A stretch of 57,277 nucleotides of DNA, from positions 1 to 57,277 of the forward strand of contig DATLAK010000012.1 of the NCBI GenBank assembly GCA_035527535.1, written 5' to 3'. Made by a program: the position numbers and the translations under genes. Shown piece after piece: positions 14,551 through 26,277 of the stretch; position 1 is the first letter of the stretch, and each line of letters starts with the position of its first letter. This DNA comes from Armatimonadota bacterium. GTDB taxonomy: Bacteria > Armatimonadota > Hebobacteria > GCA-020354555 > CP070648. The notes below the pieces were generated by a model. It saw only the letters and a program-made list of their open reading frames with translations, did no database searches and had not been told where the DNA came from.

Positions 14551-15290
14551 GCGGGTTGCGTTAGCGCCGTCGCCAGCGTGCGCGACCCAGGCAGTCTGGA
14601 GAGCGCTTGAGGGCTGGGGTAGGGCTCGCGGGTAACCTCGAGGATGTCGCCGGGGACGGTGCGTCCAGTGGACTGCGAGCCCTGCTCAGGCATGCCATCG
14701 TCGTCACGGCATGGGCGGCGGGCGCCAGCTTTTCGGAGCGAAGTGCGCATATCCTCATGGCTTACGTCGCGGCCAGAAGCATGCCGGGACCGGGCAGTTC
14801 GACGGGTCTGGCAGGCCTTCCCGGCGAGGCTTGGATCCGTCTGCGGTGCAGCACCTCTCACCTCGTCGGCCTGCTCCCTCGCGACGTCCGCCGAGAACCG
14901 GTTCCCTGCGCTCGAGATGGCACATCAGGATTGAAGCGCCCCTCGACTCGACGAGCTTGAGGGTGGTGCGCGCGCGGAGCCCACGCCGGCCCCATCACAC
15001 CCCCATGGCAGGGAAGCAGCCCCCACGCGAGGAAGAATCCGTTGGTGAGGCTAGTGGCGGCCGGAGGGCGGCGGCGCCGGCAGCCGGGGGAGGCCGGTCC
15101 GTATCCACAGGCTGGAGCCGCCACAGCGCCGTGATTCACTCCTCGCTGTGCCCCACCGAGAGCAGGCGCTCTGCGGCGGCGGTTGGTGCCAACGGCGCGG
15201 GCGAGAGCCGCGTGCGTCGGGCCCGACGTCGTGGGGCCGGGGACGCCTGCGCTCAGCACAGAAGTCGCGCGGACAAGCGGAGACCGAGCG
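14551..15290. other. 740-base stretch without a supported gene
   Basis: Several overlapping open frames exist on both strands (for example around 14607-14960 and 14547-14861), but all are Arg/Pro/Ser-rich GC artefacts with no start signal or family pattern. I see no tRNA, strong hairpin with T-tract, or insertion-sequence ends. It may be decayed coding sequence or a long leader for the kinase gene. Confidence 0.4.
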
Positions 15291-16964
15291 ATGAGACCAC
15301 CGAGGGGATTGCCGGGACTGGGAGACTGGCTGAGCCTCTTGGAGCGGCCCGGCGCCGCGTTGCGGACCGCCTTCGGGCGGACCTATGGGCAAGACGCGGC
15401 GCTGCTGGAGCGGCGCCGTCACGCCTACCGCGCGCTTCTGCAGGCGTTTGCCGCGGCCTATGACTCCCGTGACGCGATCATCGTGGCGCGGGCGCCCGCG
15501 CGCCTCAACCTGATGGGGGTGCATGTCGAGCACCGCCGCGGGGAGGTCAATTACGTCACCCATTGTCGAGAGGTCTTGATCGCGGCTCAGCCCCGGCCGG
15601 ATGATCGCGTGGTTCTGCGCAGCGTCGAGCCCGCTTGTTTCCCGGACCACAGCTTTGGCATCGGCGAGGAGCTGGCGCAAGGCGCCCGCGATAACTGGAT
15701 GGCGTTCATCGAGAGCCCCGGGGTGAGCCAGGCAGTCGCCCGCATGCGCGGCCACTGGGGCAACTACATCAAATCCGCGGTGCTGCGGCTCCAGCACCGC
15801 TTCCCCGAGCGCAAGCTGTGCGGCATGAACCTCATGGTCAGCGGCGACATTCCCATCTCCGCCGGGCTCAGCTCCTCGTCGGCGCTGGTGGTCGCCGCCG
15901 CGGTGGCGGCGGTACGGCTGAACGACCTTGACGTGGCCCCCGCCGAACTGGTCGAGCTCTGCGGGCAGGGTGAGTGGTATGTGGGCACGCGGGGAGGCGC
16001 GGGCGACCACGCGGCCATGATCTGCGGGCGCAGGAACCGGATCGCCCACATGCGGTTCTTCCCCTTTGAGCTGCTGGAATGCGTCCCCCTGCCCGACGGC
16101 TGCCAGGTGGTGATCTGCAACTCCCTCAAGGCGGCGGAGAAGTCAGGCGCCGTGCTCGATGAGTACAACCAGACCATCGCCGCGTACCAGGTGGTGCTGA
16201 TGCTGATCAAGCAGGTGCTGATCGCGGAGCTGGGAGTGGACGCGGCGGCGGTCGAGCACCAGCTCAACCATCTCGGCGACATCAACCTCAACCGGCGGGA
16301 TTTCCCGGACGAGCTTGTCTATCGCGTCCTGCGCCGGATTCCCCCGGCCATCACCCGCGAGCAGCTGCGGGCGCGGCTGTCCGCACAGCGCGCAGCGCTC
16401 GAGCAGATCTTCCTCACCCACAACGCGCCGGCCGGCGGCTACCGGGCGCGGGCGGTCGCCATGTTCGGCCTGGCTGAGATCGCGCGCGGCGCGAACGCCA
16501 TGGGCTTCCTGAAACGGGGAGACCTGGCGGGCTTCGGCGAACTCATGTACATCTCGCACGCCGGCGACCGGCTGGTGACGTTCGCCCCTGACGGCAGCCG
16601 GCACCCGTGGGACAACGAGAGCACCCGCGTCACCGATGACTACCTGCAGCGACTGCTTGACGACCGCGCCGGGGGCGACCCGGAAAAGGCCTACCGGGCG
16701 AACCTGATGTTTCAGCCCGGGGGATTCCGGTGCAGCTGCGAGGAGCTGGACCAGATCGTGGACCTCGCGCAGCGGGTGCCCGGGGTCCTGGGCGCCGGGC
16801 TCACCGGGGCGGGGTTCGGCGGGTGCGTGCTGGTGCTGGCGCGGGAGCAGGCGGTGGAGGCCCTGGTCGAGGCGCTGGGCGAAGAGTATTACGAGCCGCG
16901 CGGTCTGCCATTGGCCGCCGAGACTTGCGTCAGTGTGGCGGGGGCGGGCGTCGTCAGCCTCTAG
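15291..16964 (+). CDS. Long GHMP-family (galactokinase-like) kinase with altered sugar signature
   Basis: A 557-residue GHMP kinase, against about 380 for GalK. Motif 1 is at residues 68-83 (APARLNLMGVHVEHRR). Galactokinases have GEHxDY here; this protein has GVHVEH, replacing the Asp that in GalK contacts the sugar. Motif 2, the ATP loop, is GLSSSSALVVA near residue 192, and motif 3 is GAGFGGCVLVLA near 505. An N-terminal 65-residue helical extension and an insert at about 290-400 account for the extra length. The ATG at 15291 has ggag upstream. It lies 45 bases before the giant ATP-grasp gene and probably shares its transcript, so a sugar 1-phosphate or related substrate for that pathway is likely; galactose is doubtful. 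Confidence 0.85.
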   Translation: MRPPRGLPGLGDWLSLLERPGAALRTAFGRTYGQDAALLERRRHAYRALLQAFAAAYDSRDAIIVARAPARLNLMGVHVEHRRGEVNYVTHCREVLIAAQPRPDDRVVLRSVEPACFPDHSFGIGEELAQGARDNWMAFIESPGVSQAVARMRGHWGNYIKSAVLRLQHRFPERKLCGMNLMVSGDIPISAGLSSSSALVVAAAVAAVRLNDLDVAPAELVELCGQGEWYVGTRGGAGDHAAMICGRRNRIAHMRFFPFELLECVPLPDGCQVVICNSLKAAEKSGAVLDEYNQTIAAYQVVLMLIKQVLIAELGVDAAAVEHQLNHLGDINLNRRDFPDELVYRVLRRIPPAITREQLRARLSAQRAALEQIFLTHNAPAGGYRARAVAMFGLAEIARGANAMGFLKRGDLAGFGELMYISHAGDRLVTFAPDGSRHPWDNESTRVTDDYLQRLLDDRAGGDPEKAYRANLMFQPGGFRCSCEELDQIVDLAQRVPGVLGAGLTGAGFGGCVLVLAREQAVEALVEALGEEYYEPRGLPLAAETCVSVAGAGVVSL

Positions 16965-17009: not shown

Positions 17010-20000
17010 GTGAACGACAAGGCAAGGAGAAACCGCCAACACACGCCGGCCGATGACCGCCCGCTGCCCTTCCCGGTGTCCCGGGTGGCGCGGGTCATCC
17101 CGGGCAAGGAGGTCGCCGTCGCCCGGCGCGGCGAGGGCGCGCCTGTAGCTTCGGCGCGGATCGAGTTCGACGCGGACGGGCTGGCGGCGCGGCTGACGAG
17201 CCTGAGGACTCGCGGGCGACCATCCGCCAACCAGGTGGAGGCCGCCCGCCGCACGGCGGAGACGGTGGAACAGGCGCTGGCGGTGCTGGCGCGCTGCGCC
17301 GCTCGCAATGCGCGGTGGATCGGCGACCTCGGCGCGCAGGTTCGTTCGCGCTATGGCGCGGTGGAGGTGGAGTTCCTGGCCGATCACGATGTGGTGGCGG
17401 ATGCGATCGCCGGTGGGCGCCGGCCGACGCTGCGCCTGAGCATCGAGCCGGCGGCGGAGGCCGCGGACGCCGGTCGCGCCGGGCTCCCCATTCTCTACGC
17501 CCTCGGACTGCTGCACCAGTGCGGCCACCTGTGCGGATGGGACCGACGTACATGCCTGCAGCGGTGCCTTGATCTCTACCAGACGCTGCGGGCGGCGGAG
17601 GCCCGCTCGCTGGCGGAGGCGCTCTCGCATCCCCACCTGGACGCGGGCAAGATCTTCCTGCGGTTCCTGCGCGAGGCCGCCGGCAAGCCGGGTACGGAGC
17701 GGGACCGTTGGATCGCCTGGCTGCTCGGGCGGGCGTTTATCGAACTCCCCTACAGCAGCGAGGCGGTGCGGCAGGCGATCGCCCAGAGCGCGGATCTGGC
17801 CGATCTCCGCCTAGGCATCTACAACGCCATCCATGACACCTACGTCGAGTCCCTGGATAGCGCCCATGCGCAGCGGGTCGCCGATCGGTGCCTGGAGGAC
17901 GGGGTGCGCCTGGTCGGGGGGCGGTTCAGCCGCGCGTTCTACATTGACGCCATGCTCATGGCGAGCGCCAAGACCCTGGCAGCCAGGCACCTGCGCGCGG
18001 GCTTGAACGAGCTGGCGAAGGCGTGGAAGCGATCTCGCCTGCGGTTTGCGGACCCGGAGCTGAGAGAGCGCGGCCTGAATTTCCAGTCCATCGGCGGCGA
18101 GGTGCAGCGCCTCCTCAACCTGCCGGCCGCCGATCGCGTCTCGGTCGCGCAAGTGCAGGGAGCGGTGGGGAAGCTCAAGCAGGCCCTGAGGTCGTTCGAG
18201 ACCTCCCTCCTATCGCAAATGGACGCCCTGGAGAGCGACCGCGGGCAAACCTCCCCCGCGCCCGCGCTGGCCGGCGATCGCGCGGAGGCGCGCCGGCAGG
18301 TGGACGCCATCTTCGGCGCGATCGCGATCGTGGAGGCGGCGCTGGCCGGGGCCCCCAAGAGCGATCCCGCGTTCATGGTCTTTTTCCAGCGCCTGTTTCC
18401 GCTGGACGCCGTCAACATGGGGCTGCTGAATGAGCTCCTCGATCCCTTCTTCGGCGAGGACGAGGAGATCCACGCCCTGATCCGCTCCGCCGGCCCCCAC
18501 ATGTACGTCACCTCCAACCTGAGCGCGTGGCTACGCCGATGTGACGATTGGGTGGAAGCGCTGCCCGCCTACGCCAGCTACGAGATCGTCCCCACCGACG
18601 GCGGGTACGCGGTGGTCGCCGGCGTGCAGCGCTCGATCATGGAGGACATGTACCGCCGCCACGGCGAGGATTGGGCGCTCAACATTGACGCGGTCATGGC
18701 CAGCGAGCACATCTGCCTGGCGCGCGAGATCCTGATCGAGGCGACGGGCCTCGCCGCGGAGGCCGACCGGCGCTCCCGCCGCCACCACATCAGCCGAGAG
18801 GAGGCCGAGCGGCAGATCATCAGGCGCCGGGGATGGATGGCGCAGGTGGCGATCCTGGCCGCGCTGATCGAGGCGACCTACCTCGACCTGTGCCCGCAGG
18901 TGGCGCAGCGCGCGCATGGCGAGCGCACGGGAGGCATGGAGGCCCTGCGGACCGTGCTGAGCGAGGCGCCATCGCCTCGCAACCTGATCGCCCGCGCCCG
19001 GGAGCAGGCGGCCGCGACCGGAGTCGCCTTGGCCGAGGCTGGCCGGCACTTGGTCGGCGAGTGCGGGCTGGACGAGCGCGTCGAGGCCCTGCGGCCAGCC
19101 GCCGCCCAGCGCCGACGCCATCTGCCTTGCGTTCATGTGCTGACCACGCTCGGCCCCGGGGAAACCGAGCTGCACGTGCGCAACTGGCTCGAGGAGTCCA
19201 TGGCCCTCTTCAACGTGTCCCGGGGGCACCGCCTGGAGGGCGAAGTCGAGCAGCGCATCGCCGACTACCGGAGCCGGCTGGCGGCGGTGGGGCGCAGGAT
19301 CATCGGCGAGCTGGCGCTCGAAGGCGAACTGCACCGCATCATGCTGGAGGAAGGGCTGCGCCCCGAGGAGGAAGCCGACCACGAAGAAGGCATCCTCAAG
19401 CTCATCGCCTCGTATCCCGAGGTCGCCACCGAGGTGGCCACCCTCGCCCTGCTCATCGAGCACGCGGAGCAGGGCGGTCAGCGGCCGCGGGCTCCCCGCG
19501 ACGCTCAGGAACCGCAAGCGGTGCTGCAGCACCTGGCGGCCCATCCGGAGCTGGAGCAGGAAGCGGTGCGCCAGGTGATCGCGGACAACGACCTGGGGGC
19601 GGCGGTGCGGGCGCGGGTCGAGCAGCAGGGAATGGACGAGGCGCAAGCGGCGCGGGAGACAGTGGCCGCCAACGCGGACTGGGTGGCGGAGAAGGAGCGC
19701 TGGCGGCGATCACGGGCGCGGCGCGACGTGATCGAGTCGCTGGGGCTGGCGCCAAGCGTGCGGCCCTACCTGCGCAGCCGCCTGGATCGGATGCTGGCCA
19801 CCCTTCAGGCCCGCCGGGAGCTCATCGCCGAGCGCGGCCTGAGCGCGGAGCTGACCCAGCCGCGCTTCCGCTACGAAGCGACCGGCCCCTACAAGCGCTA
19901 TCATTTGCTCTATACCCCGAGCCGGGTGGACCTGGGGGCCGAAGAGGTCAGTTCGGTGCGCAATGTTCCCAAGTGGGTGGGGGGCGCGGATCGCGCCGGC

Positions 20001-23000
20001 GCCCGCGCGGGAAGGGAGCTCTACGCCCTCTACAACGTTGCCGGCCCGACGGCGGTGGAATCGCCGCGGCTCGCCGAATTCCTCAAGGTCGGGGAAAACT
20101 TCTTCTCTCGCGGCGGCGTCTTCTATCTCTCGCTGGCGGCGGGCGCCAACCTCGACGCGTTGGGCATCGGCGACTTCGAGTTCTTCCGCGACCAGTGGAA
20201 CCTGCGCGGCGACCGCATGGTGCTGCCCGCCGGCGAGACCTACGGCGGCTTCTGTGTGCCCAAGGAGTTCTCGCTGCTGTACGCGATCATCCTGGCGGCG
20301 GTCAACCCGCGCACCTCGACAGCGATGCTGGATCAGTTCGGGGTGCCCGCGGAACTCCACGCGCCCGTGATCGAGGATCTGCGGCGCCTGCTGCGGGCGC
20401 AAGTGGACTGCCGCGACGTACTCGCCTGGGAGGCGCGGGCGGAGAAATTCCTGGCGGAGAGATATGACTCGTACTTCGCGTTGCTGGGCCGGCCGGGCTA
20501 CGTCGCCCGGCTGCCTCAGCTCGCGCGGACGCTGGAGATGGCGGGGGGGCTGTCGGCGCAGCGCGAGCGGGAGCGCCAGCTCGCCTTCCAGCTCGCCGAG
20601 TGGGTGAACAAGAAAGCCCTGGGGCTGGAGGAGATCAACCGCATCGGCCCCTTCCGCAAGGTCCACCTGATCTACCGGCTGCTGCACGAGGCGCGAGAGA
20701 AGAATCCCCGCATCGCGCCCGACGACCAGATCATCGGGGTGATGAGCGCCTCCTATAAGGAGGGCGAGCGCAAGCGCGGGCGTGAGATCCCCATCACCGA
20801 TGTCCGCTTCAGCGCCGGCGCGCGCAAGCTCGAGATCTACGCGGGCACCGCCGAGCACCATCTGCTCAAGTCGCTGGACCCGGAAGGGCGCGAGCTGGTG
20901 CGCGAGATGTTCGCCGATTGGGTCGCTCCCGCCGACCTGCGCATGGTGGGCACCTGCACCGGCTCCGACCTCCTGAATCATGTGCCCGAGTCCGGCCTGG
21001 AGGCGATCAAGGATGAGGTCAACGACCGGCTGCTGGCCGCGGGGCTGGAGCAGGGCGTGATTGATGCCTGCTGCGCCGTGTACGGGGGCGACCTCGAGCG
21101 GTGGGCGGGGATCGCGGAGTTGCCGGAGGCCGAACGCCGCGCGCTGATCGGGGACATCGGTCCGCGAATCCACCTGCTGGTTCTCGATCGGCGCGGCCCC
21201 TACCGCCGCTATGAAGAGGCCGTGCAGGGGGTTGACTTTGTGGACCTGGGGATCCCGGACCCGGAGCTGCTGGACCTGGTGGACGATCTGCCCAAGCTCC
21301 TGGCGCTGATGCGCCGCGGGCGACCGCACAGCGCGCTGGCGCTGGCGGACGGCACCTCCGGCGCGCGCCGCCGCAGCTTCTCCGTCCGCTACGCCTGCAC
21401 CAAGGCCAAGGTCAAGGAGCTCTTTGCCCTCGACGACGGAGCGACGTATGGGGCGCTTGGCCTCGGGCGCGAGACGATCGCAGGATGGCGCGAGGAGATG
21501 GTGCGGGAGCGGGATCAGGCGCGCGAGCTGTGGGACGCCGTGAGCGCGGGGCGCGCGGACCTGGCGGCCTTCGTTTACGCGCGGATCGGCGCCAGGATCA
21601 TCCGCGAGGGCGGCGCCGAGGAAGCCGCCGAGGAGGAGATCGCCGCCCGCAAGTTCAAGGTTCCCGCCGCTCTCTATCGTTACCGCTCCGAGGCCCTGGG
21701 CCGCATCGCGCAGGGCCTGCCCCTGCAGAGCTTGGACTACGGAACCTGGCTCATCCTCGGCGGAGCGCACCTGGTCAACGGCCGCATGAGCGCGGAAGAG
21801 ATCCAGCGGCACCGGACTCAGTTCGAGGCGGCGATGGAGCGCATCGCCGGCTGCTCCCGCCGCGGGGGCGGCTATGGTCGGGCCCAGGTGGATGACCTGG
21901 TGGCGCTGCTGCTGCGGCCAGCGTACGTGCCCGCGCCCGAGAGCGAGTACCGCGAGATGGATACGGGCATCTCGGGATCGCTCAAGGCGACGGAGGACAA
22001 GGTCGCCCGCCTGGAAAAGCGCGAGGCCCGTCGGCGGCAGGCGCTGCGCGCCGGAGCCCTCAGCGCGCGCCGGCAGGCTTATGCGGCGACCGCGGGAGCG
22101 GTCGCCGAGGTCGTTCGCGGACGCGACTACGGCTCCGCCTGCGAACGGGCCAAGGCCGCCCTCGGCGATCCTGCGGGATCGCTTTCGCAGGAGGCCGTGG
22201 GCGAGTTCATCGCCTGGGCGCGGGGGGCATTGACCATCCTGCTCGATCGCCTCCTGCGCAACCAGAGCGACCTGCGGTCGTCCCTGGGGGAGCAGGTCAG
22301 CACGCTCCTCGACGGAGGCGAAGTGGACGCCGACCTCTACCGCACCGTGGCGGCGCGGATCGCGGCGGCGGCCGAGCTGGCGGCCGGGGACGCGGACGAG
22401 CTCGAGCGCATCGCCACGGCGCTGGAGCTGCTCGACATCGCCCTGGTCGTCGAGCGCACGCAGGCGGTGGACGATCCGGTGATGCTGACCATCGAGTTGG
22501 CGCGGTTCTTCGATATCACGCTCAACAACCATGTCTTCGATTGCCTGCCCTATCACTATCACCCGGAGCGAGGCGCCGGTTTCCAGGGGCTGAATCGGCA
22601 GGCGAAGTTCGAGCTGGCGGCGCGGCGGCACCGGTGGCTCTACACCTACATCCGGCAGCTCCTGGCCACCCGCAGCGAGCTGGCCGAGCTGGGATCGGCG
22701 TACCACGACGCCTGGCTCGGTGACGCCGATCGCGGCGTCGTCCCGCTGGGGGTGCGGGGCGAGGATGAGACCCAACGCTTCTGGTTCGGCTACGCGCGGC
22801 TGCGGGACGCGGCGGTGCTGAGGCATGAAGGGTTCCCCCCGCCGGAGATCTTCGAGCACCTCGACCCGGCCGCGATCGCGCACCAGCGACGGGCCAACGT
22901 GGCGATCATCTATCCCCATGGCAATACGACGGTGCCGGTGGCGTTGGAGCAGGGCGCCAAGCTGTCGCGCCGCGCCGGCATCAACCTCGTCCTGTGCGCC

Positions 23001-24659
23001 TTCCCCGACCTGGTGGACGATGATCGCTACCGCCGCCGGGTGCTGCACCTGCACGACGGCTTCATGTATGTCTCCCGGGACGACTACCGCGCGGCCCTGG
23101 CGGCGTCGGGCGTGGCCCCGCAGGAGGTGGAGCGGCGCTGCCGGTCGGTGGGCGAGGACGGCGTCCTGGTGCTGGCCGGTTTTCGGGAGCCGGTGGTCGC
23201 CCACGGAATCTTCTTCCACTTCACTCATCCGCTGCGCCCCTTCATCGGCGAGGCCCAGGCTCCGCTCATCCAGCCGCTGGTGTGGGAGGCCGCGACCCAT
23301 CTCAAGTGCCGCCTGCCGGAGATGCTGCGCGCGAGCGGGGTTGGCGCCCCCGGGCAGGTGAACTGGTATCGCGCGACCTGCGCGCGACAGTCGCCGGCGG
23401 CCGCGAAGGCCGCCATCGAGCGCGACCTGGCGGCCATGGCCGCCCGCTACGCCACCCTCATCGTCAAGCCGGAGAAAGAGTCCGGCGGGCGCAAGGCGAA
23501 GATCCTGCCGGTCGCTCGCGATGGGCGCCCGATCCGGGAGAACATCGCCGACCTGCGCGACCTGGTTTACGACATCTGCAAGACCGATAACGCGGTCATC
23601 CAGCAGGTGCTGCCGTCCCACGTCCGCCAGCTCTACGCGCCGTCCTTCCTGACCGACATGGTCGCGCGCTTCGCCCGCATCGGCGTACCGGTGCTGCTGG
23701 AGGGCGGACGGCCGACCCCGCTGTTCTCGTACTTCCGGCAGATCGTGGTGCTGGGCAAGGACGGCTTCGAGACTTCGCACCATATCACGGTCGTGAGCAC
23801 GCTGGGGATCGCCAACGTGGGGCAGGGCGGCTTGCTCTACGAGTACCGCGACGAAATGATTGACCCCCAGTACCGCGCGGACCTGCGCCGCGAGCTGACC
23901 GAGGCCACCCGTGCTTCGGTCGCCTCCGAGCAGGCCTACCTGCGCGAGCACTGGCGCGAGATTCTGCAGGAGTACCTGGCGGTGCACCCCGAGTTCGCCG
24001 ATGACGTCAAGCTGGAGGCGAGGGAAGACCTGACCGGGTTCCCGGACACCGGCATCGCATACGAGATGGGTGACTACATGCCGGTAATGCTGGTGGATGA
24101 CAACCACCACCTGGTGCGGCTCTACGACCGCGAGCGGGGCGTGCTGCTGCCCCTGTTCGACCGCGAGGGGCGGCCCACCGCCGTCCCGGTGTGCGACGAG
24201 GGGGGAACGCCCGTGCCCCGGCTCGATGCGAGCGGCAAGCCCCTGCCCCTGCCGATGTTTGACGAGCGGGGGCGAAGAATCCCCCGCTGCGACGAGCGCG
24301 GGCGCCCGATCAGCGCCCTGGTCGTCTTCAAGATCGAATCCAACCCGGGAGCGGGGCTGTGGCGGCCGCACGATGATCAGCTTCCGGCGGAGCGCAAGGG
24401 CGAAGGCGTCTATACCATCTTCAGGTGCCTGGGCGAACGGGCGGCGATCTACCGGGAGGAGCTGGGCAAGCTGGCCGCCTCCGCGGAAACGAAGCCGCCG
24501 CGGCGCAGGCGAACCGGTCCCGCCCCGCGCTATCTGAGCGGCCGCCCCTCCGGCGGAGATGCCCTGGAGCGGGCGATCAAGCGCGCGAGCGAGGAGCTGG
24601 GGCGAGGCCCCGCGCGTCGCGGGCCGGGCAGGTGTCCATCCTCGCCGCCAGGCGAGTGA
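17010..24659 (+). CDS. Giant 2549-residue protein with C-terminal ATP-grasp domain
   Basis: One uninterrupted frame of 2549 residues, starting GTG 17010 (gaggaagga upstream). There is no signal peptide or membrane helix. Near the N-terminus a Cys/His cluster (C171, H173, C175, C182, C186) could bind metal. Residues about 300-950 are largely helical. The middle region has three related motifs, GPYKRY (959), GPFRKV (1213) and GPYRRY (1396), and a conserved-looking GETYGGFCVPKEF with Cys1082. From about 1960 an ATP-grasp module follows: IVKPEKESGGRKAKI (Lys2153), VIQQVLP, YFRQIVVLG, ANVGQGG, and KIESNPG with metal-binding-type Glu2443/Asn2445. Between these is a D-x-x-G-x-P repeat insert. ATP-grasp enzymes join a carboxylate to an amine or thiol by an acyl phosphate. 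I do not recognise the rest. Neighbours are a GHMP kinase and another ATP-grasp enzyme. Confidence 0.85.
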   Translation: MNDKARRNRQHTPADDRPLPFPVSRVARVIPGKEVAVARRGEGAPVASARIEFDADGLAARLTSLRTRGRPSANQVEAARRTAETVEQALAVLARCAARNARWIGDLGAQVRSRYGAVEVEFLADHDVVADAIAGGRRPTLRLSIEPAAEAADAGRAGLPILYALGLLHQCGHLCGWDRRTCLQRCLDLYQTLRAAEARSLAEALSHPHLDAGKIFLRFLREAAGKPGTERDRWIAWLLGRAFIELPYSSEAVRQAIAQSADLADLRLGIYNAIHDTYVESLDSAHAQRVADRCLEDGVRLVGGRFSRAFYIDAMLMASAKTLAARHLRAGLNELAKAWKRSRLRFADPELRERGLNFQSIGGEVQRLLNLPAADRVSVAQVQGAVGKLKQALRSFETSLLSQMDALESDRGQTSPAPALAGDRAEARRQVDAIFGAIAIVEAALAGAPKSDPAFMVFFQRLFPLDAVNMGLLNELLDPFFGEDEEIHALIRSAGPHMYVTSNLSAWLRRCDDWVEALPAYASYEIVPTDGGYAVVAGVQRSIMEDMYRRHGEDWALNIDAVMASEHICLAREILIEATGLAAEADRRSRRHHISREEAERQIIRRRGWMAQVAILAALIEATYLDLCPQVAQRAHGERTGGMEALRTVLSEAPSPRNLIARAREQAAATGVALAEAGRHLVGECGLDERVEALRPAAAQRRRHLPCVHVLTTLGPGETELHVRNWLEESMALFNVSRGHRLEGEVEQRIADYRSRLAAVGRRIIGELALEGELHRIMLEEGLRPEEEADHEEGILKLIASYPEVATEVATLALLIEHAEQGGQRPRAPRDAQEPQAVLQHLAAHPELEQEAVRQVIADNDLGAAVRARVEQQGMDEAQAARETVAANADWVAEKERWRRSRARRDVIESLGLAPSVRPYLRSRLDRMLATLQARRELIAERGLSAELTQPRFRYEATGPYKRYHLLYTPSRVDLGAEEVSSVRNVPKWVGGADRAGARAGRELYALYNVAGPTAVESPRLAEFLKVGENFFSRGGVFYLSLAAGANLDALGIGDFEFFRDQWNLRGDRMVLPAGETYGGFCVPKEFSLLYAIILAAVNPRTSTAMLDQFGVPAELHAPVIEDLRRLLRAQVDCRDVLAWEARAEKFLAERYDSYFALLGRPGYVARLPQLARTLEMAGGLSAQRERERQLAFQLAEWVNKKALGLEEINRIGPFRKVHLIYRLLHEAREKNPRIAPDDQIIGVMSASYKEGERKRGREIPITDVRFSAGARKLEIYAGTAEHHLLKSLDPEGRELVREMFADWVAPADLRMVGTCTGSDLLNHVPESGLEAIKDEVNDRLLAAGLEQGVIDACCAVYGGDLERWAGIAELPEAERRALIGDIGPRIHLLVLDRRGPYRRYEEAVQGVDFVDLGIPDPELLDLVDDLPKLLALMRRGRPHSALALADGTSGARRRSFSVRYACTKAKVKELFALDDGATYGALGLGRETIAGWREEMVRERDQARELWDAVSAGRADLAAFVYARIGARIIREGGAEEAAEEEIAARKFKVPAALYRYRSEALGRIAQGLPLQSLDYGTWLILGGAHLVNGRMSAEEIQRHRTQFEAAMERIAGCSRRGGGYGRAQVDDLVALLLRPAYVPAPESEYREMDTGISGSLKATEDKVARLEKREARRRQALRAGALSARRQAYAATAGAVAEVVRGRDYGSACERAKAALGDPAGSLSQEAVGEFIAWARGALTILLDRLLRNQSDLRSSLGEQVSTLLDGGEVDADLYRTVAARIAAAAELAAGDADELERIATALELLDIALVVERTQAVDDPVMLTIELARFFDITLNNHVFDCLPYHYHPERGAGFQGLNRQAKFELAARRHRWLYTYIRQLLATRSELAELGSAYHDAWLGDADRGVVPLGVRGEDETQRFWFGYARLRDAAVLRHEGFPPPEIFEHLDPAAIAHQRRANVAIIYPHGNTTVPVALEQGAKLSRRAGINLVLCAFPDLVDDDRYRRRVLHLHDGFMYVSRDDYRAALAASGVAPQEVERRCRSVGEDGVLVLAGFREPVVAHGIFFHFTHPLRPFIGEAQAPLIQPLVWEAATHLKCRLPEMLRASGVGAPGQVNWYRATCARQSPAAAKAAIERDLAAMAARYATLIVKPEKESGGRKAKILPVARDGRPIRENIADLRDLVYDICKTDNAVIQQVLPSHVRQLYAPSFLTDMVARFARIGVPVLLEGGRPTPLFSYFRQIVVLGKDGFETSHHITVVSTLGIANVGQGGLLYEYRDEMIDPQYRADLRRELTEATRASVASEQAYLREHWREILQEYLAVHPEFADDVKLEAREDLTGFPDTGIAYEMGDYMPVMLVDDNHHLVRLYDRERGVLLPLFDREGRPTAVPVCDEGGTPVPRLDASGKPLPLPMFDERGRRIPRCDERGRPISALVVFKIESNPGAGLWRPHDDQLPAERKGEGVYTIFRCLGERAAIYREELGKLAASAETKPPRRRRTGPAPRYLSGRPSGGDALERAIKRASEELGRGPARRGPGRCPSSPPGE
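24118..24312 (+). repeat. Degenerate D-x-x-G-x-P peptide repeat coding region
   Basis: Inside the giant gene, residues about 2370-2434 contain at least five degenerate repeats of 10-14 residues: LYDRERGVLLP, LFDREGRPTAVP, CDEGGTPVPR, LDASGKPLPLP, FDERGRRIPR and CDERGRPIS. Each is an acidic turn followed by Gly and Pro and a hydrophobic strand, suggesting a small stack of beta-hairpins inserted in the ATP-grasp domain. Confidence 0.6.
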
Positions 24660-24726
24660 GGGCGCGGGCGCTTGGGCTCCGGGTTGTGCTTGAGCGGCGG
24701 TAATTAAGTCGACTGTCCCCGGAATT

Positions 24727-26277
24727 ATGAGCGGCAAAGGCTTCGGCGCGGACGAGATGAGCGTGGTGCTTGCGCACTTCCTCGAGCAGGAGCTGCGGGC
24801 CCGGCCGCGGGAGATCGGGGAGCTGATGCGGCGAGCCCCCCCGCGCGCCCACGAGCAGCTCGCCCGGCTCCTGGTTTCGCGCTCGGGGGAGCTCAGCGCT
24901 CGCATCCCCGCGGCGAGCGGGACCAGCCTGCGCCTCCTCTTCGCCGACGCGGGCTACCTGGCCCGGGTCGCCGAGATGGCGTGGCAGCGACTGCGGGCCG
25001 GCGCCGATGCCCCGGCCTTGCGCATCGCCCCCCAACCCCTGGACGCCTCGGCGGTCTCCACCCTGCTCGCCGGCCGCACCAACCTCGCGCTGATCTTCGC
25101 CGCCGAGGCGGTTTGCCTCCAGGACACGCTCGAGACTCTCCACGCTGACGAGCGCCGCTGGCGCGAACGAGAGGAGATGACGGCCGAGAGCCGCGCCCCC
25201 GGCATCAATCTCCTTGCCGTCCACGCCGAGTGGCTCATGCCCGGCGGAGCGACCCGCCGCGCCCTGGTGGTGGACCATGGCGGAATGGCCAACGAGGTCA
25301 TGTTCGATTCGCCGGTGCCCATCCACGCGGCGGAAGTCCTGCACTTGCCCACCGATGGCGAACAGGAGCTTCACCGCGAGCTCTCCCGGTATTGCGCCGA
25401 GAACCATATCCTTGAAATCAACCCCTACCCCGCGGCCGAGCGCGCGGACGACAAGTTCCGGGCGCACACGCTGTGGCGCCAACGCGGCGTAACCACGCCG
25501 CAGTCGTGGCTCTTCGCGCGATCACTATCGCCCGGGGAAGTCGCCGCATCGCTGCGGGGCGTCCTGGCGCAGATGGGGGCCCGCGGGCGCCGGCAGGCCC
25601 TCTACCTGCAGCCGAACCGCGGCACCGAGGGGCAGGGGGTCGCCCGCGTCGAGGCTGCCGCGCCCGACCTCGAGCGGCTGGGCAGTGCGCATCCCGCGGT
25701 CGCCGCCATCGGTCGCCTGGGCGCGGTAGATGATGCGCTCGTGCGCGAAGAGCGGGGCGACACTCGATTTCGCCACCCGGGGGACGGGGGGCTGCGCCGC
25801 ATCGCCTTTCGGGTCAACGTGGGGTGGGACGGGAAGCGCTTCGTCGCGGAGTCGGGATTCGCCCAGGTGGCCGCCGACGAGACGGCCGACGCGGCCTCGC
25901 GCGGGCGCGGAGGAAGCATCGTCCCGGTGGCGGACGCCATGGCCTCGCTGTGGCGGCGCGGCGCGCGGGGTTGGAGGCTCGCGGCGCCCGCGGGGAGTGC
26001 CCTTCAACCAATGAAATGCGCCGCCGTCGCCGCCGCCGAAGCGCTCAACGCCGACTTGTGCGAGACCGCATTCCTGAAGCACCTGGGCATTGACATCGTC
26101 CTCGAGTCGCGGGGCGGGCGCTTGGCGCCGGTGGTGCTTGAAGCCAATGCGCGCCCGGCGGGATTGGCCCACGCCGCGGTTCTGGAAAGCCTCCCCGCAA
26201 CCCCTGCGACATTCACCATCGGCACCGCCGTGTTCGGTTTCCTGAGCCGCATCCGAGGGCTCTGGCACCATGCCTGA
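24727..26277 (+). CDS. ATP-grasp ligase-like protein
   Basis: A 516-residue protein with an N-terminal helical region (1-120), a pre-ATP-grasp alpha/beta domain (about 160-240) and an ATP-grasp domain (about 245-490). Supporting motifs in order: NPYPAAERADDKFRAH before the fold, YLQPNRGTEGQGV near 294 (the flexible ATP loop; Gln-Pro-Asn where many have Lys-Pro), RRIAFRVNVGWDGKRF, and VVLEANARPAGL near 472 with the Glu-x-Asn metal pair. The substrate is unknown. It is 67 bases after the giant gene on the same strand with only a weak ribosome binding site. Two ATP-grasp enzymes in a row suggest successive ligations. Confidence 0.8.
   Translation: MSGKGFGADEMSVVLAHFLEQELRARPREIGELMRRAPPRAHEQLARLLVSRSGELSARIPAASGTSLRLLFADAGYLARVAEMAWQRLRAGADAPALRIAPQPLDASAVSTLLAGRTNLALIFAAEAVCLQDTLETLHADERRWREREEMTAESRAPGINLLAVHAEWLMPGGATRRALVVDHGGMANEVMFDSPVPIHAAEVLHLPTDGEQELHRELSRYCAENHILEINPYPAAERADDKFRAHTLWRQRGVTTPQSWLFARSLSPGEVAASLRGVLAQMGARGRRQALYLQPNRGTEGQGVARVEAAAPDLERLGSAHPAVAAIGRLGAVDDALVREERGDTRFRHPGDGGLRRIAFRVNVGWDGKRFVAESGFAQVAADETADAASRGRGGSIVPVADAMASLWRRGARGWRLAAPAGSALQPMKCAAVAAAEALNADLCETAFLKHLGIDIVLESRGGRLAPVVLEANARPAGLAHAAVLESLPATPATFTIGTAVFGFLSRIRGLWHHA

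Follow-up and report, generated by a model that had tools for sequence, protein, structure and literature searches.

A giant protein combining an inflated nucleotide-sugar dehydrogenase-like core with a predicted ATP-grasp ligase in Armatimonadota and other phyla

INTRODUCTION

What kind of work might be carried out by a single bacterial polypeptide of 2,549 residues? The question is raised by a 57,277-nucleotide contig of an Armatimonadota bacterium (DATLAK010000012.1, assembly GCA_035527535.1; hereafter the window, meaning the whole stretch of DNA that was analyzed), which encodes the following protein.

17010..24659, + strand: giant protein P0001, GTG start, 2,549 aa, member of a 55-row family alignment

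We consider it probable that this giant is a two-headed cytosolic nucleotide-sugar enzyme, in which an inflated dehydrogenase and an ATP-grasp ligase would act with partner proteins to join a C6 carboxylate to an amine. An earlier note on the same DNA had taken the protein for a likely multicatalytic cytosolic machine with no membrane or signal segment. The protein does look so, comprising a dehydrogenase-like core and an ATP-grasp ligase, and hydropathy agrees with the absence of both kinds of segment (maximal 19-residue value, 1.67; N-terminal value, 0.70). No description of the giant was found in the open-licence PMC literature, and this widespread family is not yet named by family databases, with no full-length model in Pfam or NCBIfam. 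A conserved protein of about 2,200 to 2,700 residues occurs across many phyla, and its parts point to an unrecognized nucleotide-sugar pathway.

RESULTS AND DISCUSSION

Family sampling

A scan of 84,980 species genomes yielded 69 loci. Since L028 to L096 were retrieved with two short patterns, this count sets a minimum for the size of the family. The 69 loci used for neighborhood counts correspond to 74 locus rows minus five duplicates (L028, L031, L045, L061, and L095). The 55-row alignment omits 14 further copies that are partial, broken, or near-duplicate (L035, L047, L049, L057, L063, L071, L080, L083, L084, L087, L091, L093, L094, and L096), and some of its rows are only 23 to 30% identical to the window protein. 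In L035, L057, and L091, the giant is broken into two frames by a frameshift that either is present in the genome itself or arose during assembly.

An NDP-sugar dehydrogenase-like core

When P0001 was searched against NCBIfam, the single match was TIGR03026, the model of nucleoside diphosphate (NDP)-sugar dehydrogenases, at residues 959 to 1092 (E = 2e-6). The same model matched the related P0004 at 2.3e-12 and the giant of Methylovulum miyakonense at 1.9e-15, and PF00984, the Pfam model of the central domain, scored above its cut-off in three methanotroph giants. Using hhalign against the dehydrogenases of the window's genome and phylum, we obtained a match of 98.6% (E = 5e-16) over the second half of the core. 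A PDB profile search with residues 200 to 1345 returned 4r16 (7.7e-10) and 3g79 (1.4e-9), the former including a second, weak stretch across the N..MP and YK..D.R motifs. In a sequence dot-plot, five windows exceeded the reversed-profile control (top z, 4.6), all within residues 961 to 1252, and a sixth at 961 to 981 (z, 4.5) lay at the control's edge.

An AlphaFold model of residues 200 to 1345 (54 sequences) reached a predicted local distance difference test (pLDDT) value of 88.2 and a predicted template modeling (pTM) score of 0.87. Structural comparison with VIA paired this model with NDP-sugar dehydrogenases starting near their first residues: 3g79 gave a Z of 21.8 (3.7 Å, 271 residues), residues 1 to 216 of guanosine diphosphate (GDP)-mannose dehydrogenase 1mfz gave a Z of 19.9 (2.2 Å, 212 residues), and the remaining oxidoreductases trailed at about 14. 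The 1mfz match spans positions 101 to 833 of the model, i.e., residues 300 to 1032 of the protein. Profile alignments begin at position 126 to 127 of ordinary enzymes, and the idea that the nicotinamide adenine dinucleotide (NAD) domain is missing was dropped because the structural comparison put that domain at residues 300 to 1032. Taken together with the profile matches, the model suggests one whole dehydrogenase over residues 298 to 1488 or so, between whose elements some 700 residues, mostly helical, have been inserted. It would comprise an NAD-type Rossmann domain, a central helix bearing the sites of Lys/Asn and Cys, and a C-terminal nucleotide domain, with the following elements.

17901..21473, + strand: NDP-sugar-dehydrogenase-like core, residues about 298 to 1488, with large insertions (hhalign, PDB profile, model)
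17907..17939, + strand: RLVGGRFSRAF, residues 300 to 310, first Rossmann strand and loop, residue equivalence presumed
19128..19199, + strand: HVLTTLGPGETELHVRNWLEES, residues 707 to 730, putatively corresponding to the ST..PGTT element (human Thr131)
19884..19937, + strand: GPYKRYHLLYTPSRVDLG, residues 959 to 976, SPERVDPG element with Ser971 in the place of the catalytic Glu (hhalign)
20085..20099, + strand: KVGEN, residues 1026 to 1030, catalytic Lys and Asn (human Lys220 and Asn224), in 55/55 rows
20232..20270, + strand: GETYGGFCVPKEF, residues 1075 to 1087, loop of catalytic Cys1082 (human Cys276), GGxCxPKD motif of dehydrogenases
20637..20663, + strand: NRIGPFRKV, residues 1210 to 1218, N..MP element, start of the C-terminal nucleotide domain
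20754..20825, + strand: YKEG..DVRFSAGAR, residues 1249 to 1272, YKP..D.R.S element (PDB profile, hhalign)
21195..21473, + strand: residues 1396 to 1488 (GPYRRY, ADGTSG, YGALGLG), presumed end of the C-terminal nucleotide domain

The first of these elements has a strand (300 to 305) and a helix (308 to 318) in the model, and VIA aligns it with the start of the enzymes. The LTT of HVLTTLGPGETELHVRNWLEES is present in 55/55 rows, with a model strand at 707 to 710; a secondary hhalign match to ST..PGTT is weak (0.2%) and a lead only. NRIGPFRKV was placed by PDB profile alignment to an INERMP-like stretch of 4r16, by hhalign, and by the dot-plot (z, 5.2). The C-terminal end of the core was placed by motif and predicted strands only (1410 to 1412, 1444 to 1447, and 1479 to 1482): its motifs are likened to DGRN and Y.GIG, which we take to be dehydrogenase motifs, and a collinear dot-plot window at 1400 to 1420 (z, 4.4) is within control noise.

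The spacing between elements shows where the extra length sits. Residues 713 and 971 are separated by a median of 258 residues versus about 31 in ordinary enzymes, and residues 1082 and 1250 by about 168 versus about 64, whereas the interval from 1026 to 1082 measures 55 to 56 in all rows, the same as in ordinary enzymes. The core would be a striking example of a classic two-Rossmann enzyme whose insertions exceed its own size.

The earlier note had pointed to an active-site loop around Cys1082. This was borne out, since GETYGGFCVPKEF is the catalytic-Cys motif of NDP-sugar dehydrogenases of the uridine diphosphate (UDP)-glucose/UDP-N-acetylmannosamine type. Conservation mapping found the Cys in 55/55 rows, a count biased by the inclusion of Cys1082 in one of the two main scan patterns; the independent pattern occurs in 38 rows, 37 of which also match the Cys pattern, and the Cys is present in 38/38. 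Likewise, K1026, N1030, R1066 (human Arg260), D1068, K1085, Y1249, K1250, D1264, and R1266 occur in every row, and the position of human Asp280 is occupied by Asp in 33 and by Glu in 22 of the 55. In the human UDP-glucose dehydrogenase, excerpts of PMC3184952 assign Cys276, Lys220, Asn224, Asp280, and Arg260 to the site and describe Thr131 as shifting along with the cofactor.

Hexapeptides and the Cys/His cluster

GPYKRY, GPFRKV, and GPYRRY lie exactly where the earlier note had put them, at residues 959, 1213, and 1396, but its proposal that they mark repeated modules did not hold. When the three motif windows, each of 161 residues and drawn from the family alignment, were compared profile against profile, the probabilities were 0.1 to 0.3%, and 27 of 28 control pairs gave 0.0 to 3.3%, the 28th reaching 61.9% through an 11-residue window overlap. 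Since the motif windows are no more alike than the control pairs, tandem repeats were ruled out. The pattern GP[YF][KR][KR][YV], picked post hoc, occurs three times in P0001 versus a mean of 0.001 in 2,000 residue shuffles; three copies were found in 3/55 homologues, the window included, and none in 35/55. GPYKRY directly precedes the SPERVDPG-like element, and the three motifs appear to belong to different elements of one dehydrogenase, GPYKRY and GPFRKV by alignment and GPYRRY by inference.

The same note had proposed a metal site, which corresponds to the following feature.

17520..17567, + strand: C171/H173/C175/C182/C186 cluster, not conserved

These residues are present, but at least four Cys/His are kept in a single row of 55, that of the window itself, and the site is unsupported. 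A protein built of tandem modules plus a metal site, as the similar hexapeptides and the cluster in the window protein would have it, is therefore an explanation to which we give practically no weight.

A predicted ATP-grasp head

Beyond the core, the protein continues with two further regions.

Residues about 1489 to 1956: helical spacer between the core and the ATP-grasp domain
22878..24449, + strand: ATP-grasp ligase domain, residues about 1957 to 2480 (model, VIA, Foldseek)

In an AlphaFold model of residues 1340 to 2500 (53 sequences; pLDDT, 87.7; pTM, 0.78), the latter region is predicted to fold as an ATP-grasp ligase. VIA aligned it with DcsG (6jil) at a Z of 15.7 (3.5 Å, 280/298 residues), Ddl, RimK, and LysX ranking next, and Foldseek matched 6jil at an E of 1.6e-4; a PDB profile search with residues 1340 to 2500 returned nothing useful. 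D2355, E2443, and N2445 (Asp ... Glu-x-Asn) are present in all 50 rows with letters there and presumably serve as metal ligands, the roles being known from Ddl. Compared with DcsG, Ddl, RimK, and LysX (6jil, 1iow, 5zct, and 3vpd), the domain is alike in its predicted fold over nearly the whole length and in the Asp and Glu-x-Asn residues, whereas it has no useful match in Pfam or PDB profiles and is placed at the end of a dehydrogenase-like giant.

Neighboring genes and fusions

Two genes flank the giant in the window.

15183..16964, + strand: P0002, GHMP sugar kinase (galactokinase-like), 593 aa, ending 46 bases ahead of the giant's GTG
24727..26277, + strand: P0003, second ATP-grasp protein (RimK-like), 516 aa (TIGR00768, 4e-5)

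P0003 matches PF14397 at 3e-4, under the cut-off, and has a relative in L012 (3e-22). It is remote kin of the giant's own ATP-grasp domain (88%, E = 3e-6), whereas four other parts of the giant gave 0.05 to 0.7%. Of the 50 loci offering 1 kb of room or more, 39 have such a partner gene immediately downstream in the same orientation, and in 2 further loci it is fused to the giant. Distances of giants and partners correlate with an r of 0.84 over 36 loci, the maximum of 500 permutations being 0.22.

P0002 carries GHMP_kinases_N (7e-18), GHMP_kinases_C (1.5e-15), and GalKase_gal_bdg (1e-7) domains of Pfam, and its cluster adjoins the giant in L025, L026, L027, and other loci. Its substrate may not be plain galactose, because the sugar-binding signature reads ARLNLMGVHVEH and differs from GRVNLIGEHTDY, which we take to be the galactokinase signature. 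A GHMP kinase was found in 28/69 loci, fusions counted, two of them on the opposite strand. These kinases differ, with galactokinase-like and fucokinase-like ones among them, and that of L085 matches PRK13412, a bifunctional fucokinase, at 1.5e-38; they share GHMP domains with galactokinase and with bifunctional fucokinase/fucose-1-phosphate guanylyltransferase but remain under the equivalog cut-offs. In a cluster of four methanotroph loci, a nucleotidyltransferase scoring above the GalU cut-off is also present.

The diversity of the kinases would suit a dehydrogenase-like pocket recruited for some other, non-nucleotide alcohol. We regard this as improbable, given that the core retains the N..MP and YK..D.R motifs of the C-terminal nucleotide domain and that GalU is present in methanotroph operons.

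In two Omnitrophota metagenome-assembled genomes (MAGs), one open reading frame (ORF) encodes a GHMP kinase along with the giant core and its ATP-grasp partner.

L090, 4090-20124, + strand: fusion ORF, 5,344 codons
L092, 959-18082, + strand: fusion ORF, 5,707 codons

The L090 ORF additionally carries an aldose 1-epimerase (6e-34), and the GHMP region of L092 falls under the Pfam cut-off yet matches the neighbor profile at 6e-13. By eye, both contain a stretch resembling phosphosugar isomerases, with no Pfam match, and both start with a hydrophobic, signal-like segment that the window protein does not have. Very long Omnitrophota ORFs, as these two are, also figure in excerpts of PMC10066038. 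The giant ORFs described there exceed 20 kb and often encode membrane helices and adhesin-like domains, with few annotated domains, whereas L090 and L092 measure 16 to 17 kb and hold enzyme domains.

A proposed pathway and the evidence weighed

The folds were predicted or profiled, and the conserved catalytic residues, gene linkage, and fusions were observed; we infer NAD use, the sugar, the amine partner, the product, the order of steps, and the role of Ser971. In the proposed order, a GHMP sugar-1-kinase would yield a sugar-1-phosphate, which a nucleotidyltransferase (GalU in some methanotrophs) would activate. The core would then bind the NDP-sugar and, with NAD+, form a Cys1082-linked C6 intermediate. 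The resulting carboxylate would be coupled to an amine by the giant's ATP-grasp head acting with the second ATP-grasp protein, and the product would be an NDP-linked uronamide or uronyl-amino-acid. The small operon of kinase, giant, ATP-grasp gene, and sometimes GalU is present in named strains, which makes the question testable.

Several observations weigh against this proposal. P0001 has no match in Pfam, and its TIGR03026 score of 26.9 bits is far under the curated cut-off of 189.8, as are those of its relatives (46.4 for P0004 and 55.2 to 56.6 for three methanotroph giants). Foldseek placed 4r16 first for the core, but with an E of only 2.4e-3 and low template modeling scores. The N-terminal Rossmann domain is visible in the predicted structure alone, the sequence dot-plot finding neither that part nor residues 1400 to 1488. 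The partner ATP-grasp gene is elsewhere in 2/50 loci and was not found in 9/50, shared descent may account in part for the distance correlation, and no GHMP kinase was found in 41/69 loci, many of them cut short. The position of the catalytic Glu (human Glu161; SPE[RF] motif) is Ser971 in 55/55 giants versus Glu in 27/27 ordinary enzymes of the phylum (26 by pattern and 1 by inspection), and the first-strand loop reads GRxSRA rather than GxGxxG in most of 52 rows. These two changes leave NAD use and a two-fold oxidation uncertain.

The comparison with NDP-sugar dehydrogenases (4r16 and 3g79; TIGR03026; PF00984) cuts both ways. The central domain, the catalytic Cys/Lys/Asn/Arg, and the N..MP and YK..D.R motifs are shared in the same order, as are the Lys-Cys spacing and the predicted fold (Z, about 21). 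The giant's core, however, has about 1,190 residues versus about 430, owing to the insertions; it has Ser at the position of the catalytic Glu, lacks GxGxxG, is fused to an ATP-grasp domain, and scores far under the family cut-off. Because both the catalytic Glu and the full-length family score fail, we place the giant outside TIGR03026, as a distant relative whose architecture is unusual.

Could the core then be non-oxidizing, a scaffold or sensor to which an NDP-sugar or covalent sugar adduct binds, with catalysis left to the ATP-grasp heads only? The uniform Glu-to-Ser replacement, the loss of the GxGxxG pattern, and the very large insertions speak for such a role. We nevertheless hold it to be unlikely, as Cys1082, Lys1026, Asn1030, Arg1066, and YK..D.R are invariant in rows as little as 23 to 30% identical, and few parts of the protein are conserved as well as this core.

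For the two-headed enzyme that we favor, the chemistry is probably altered relative to that of the authentic enzymes, because the catalytic Glu is Ser throughout the alignment. In excerpts of PMC3184952, the crystal structure of the human E161Q mutant holds a thiohemiacetal intermediate. A more speculative variant, which we think somewhat less likely even than a scaffold, is that the Glu-to-Ser change halts the reaction at a Cys1082-bound thiohemiacetal or thioester, and an amine from the ATP-grasp heads, not water, would take the uronyl group, making the giant an acyl-transferring, amide-forming assembly line. If so, it would represent a new kind of nucleotide-sugar enzyme, shared by numerous phyla of bacteria and possibly by certain archaea. 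The invariant catalytic replacement raises the question of how a sugar-nucleotide dehydrogenase can be retuned.

Distribution and minor observations

The giant occurs in 6/291 genomes of the window's phylum, the window's included, and a genome of the same family (G001, compared among 61 relatives) is without it. By their record titles, the 69 loci fall into 16 from Omnitrophota, 15 from Methylococcaceae-group methanotrophs, 11 from Latescibacterota, 6 from Gemmatimonadota, 5 from Armatimonadota (Zipacnadia included), 4 from Bathyarchaeota, and 12 others. Three named methanotroph strains carry the giant, and it is present in 5/151 genomes of the family of M. miyakonense. No relatives were found among viral contigs, plasmids (with the L056 copy as the query), or phages. 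In the tree, the rows divide into two supported halves (22 and 33 rows); since phyla are mixed in both, it suggests transfer between lineages, and some MAG labels may be incorrect. The Bathyarchaeota MAGs with a giant are L029, L035, L042, and L047, of which L029 and L042 group in a single supported clade that lies among rows from bacteria; these copies reflect either transfer or mis-binned contigs.

Two recurring neighbor families have no Pfam match (L089:10396-12543, + strand; L087:5211-7007, - strand). Opposite the giant gene, a 1,731-codon open frame runs along the - strand of the window (19710-24905), most likely a shadow frame of a high-GC (guanine-cytosine) gene. Histidine kinase, response regulator, and HDOD genes, identified with Pfam, recur upstream of the giant in Latescibacterota and Gemmatimonadota loci (L059, L066, L070, L085, L086, and others), which suggests that its expression is regulated.

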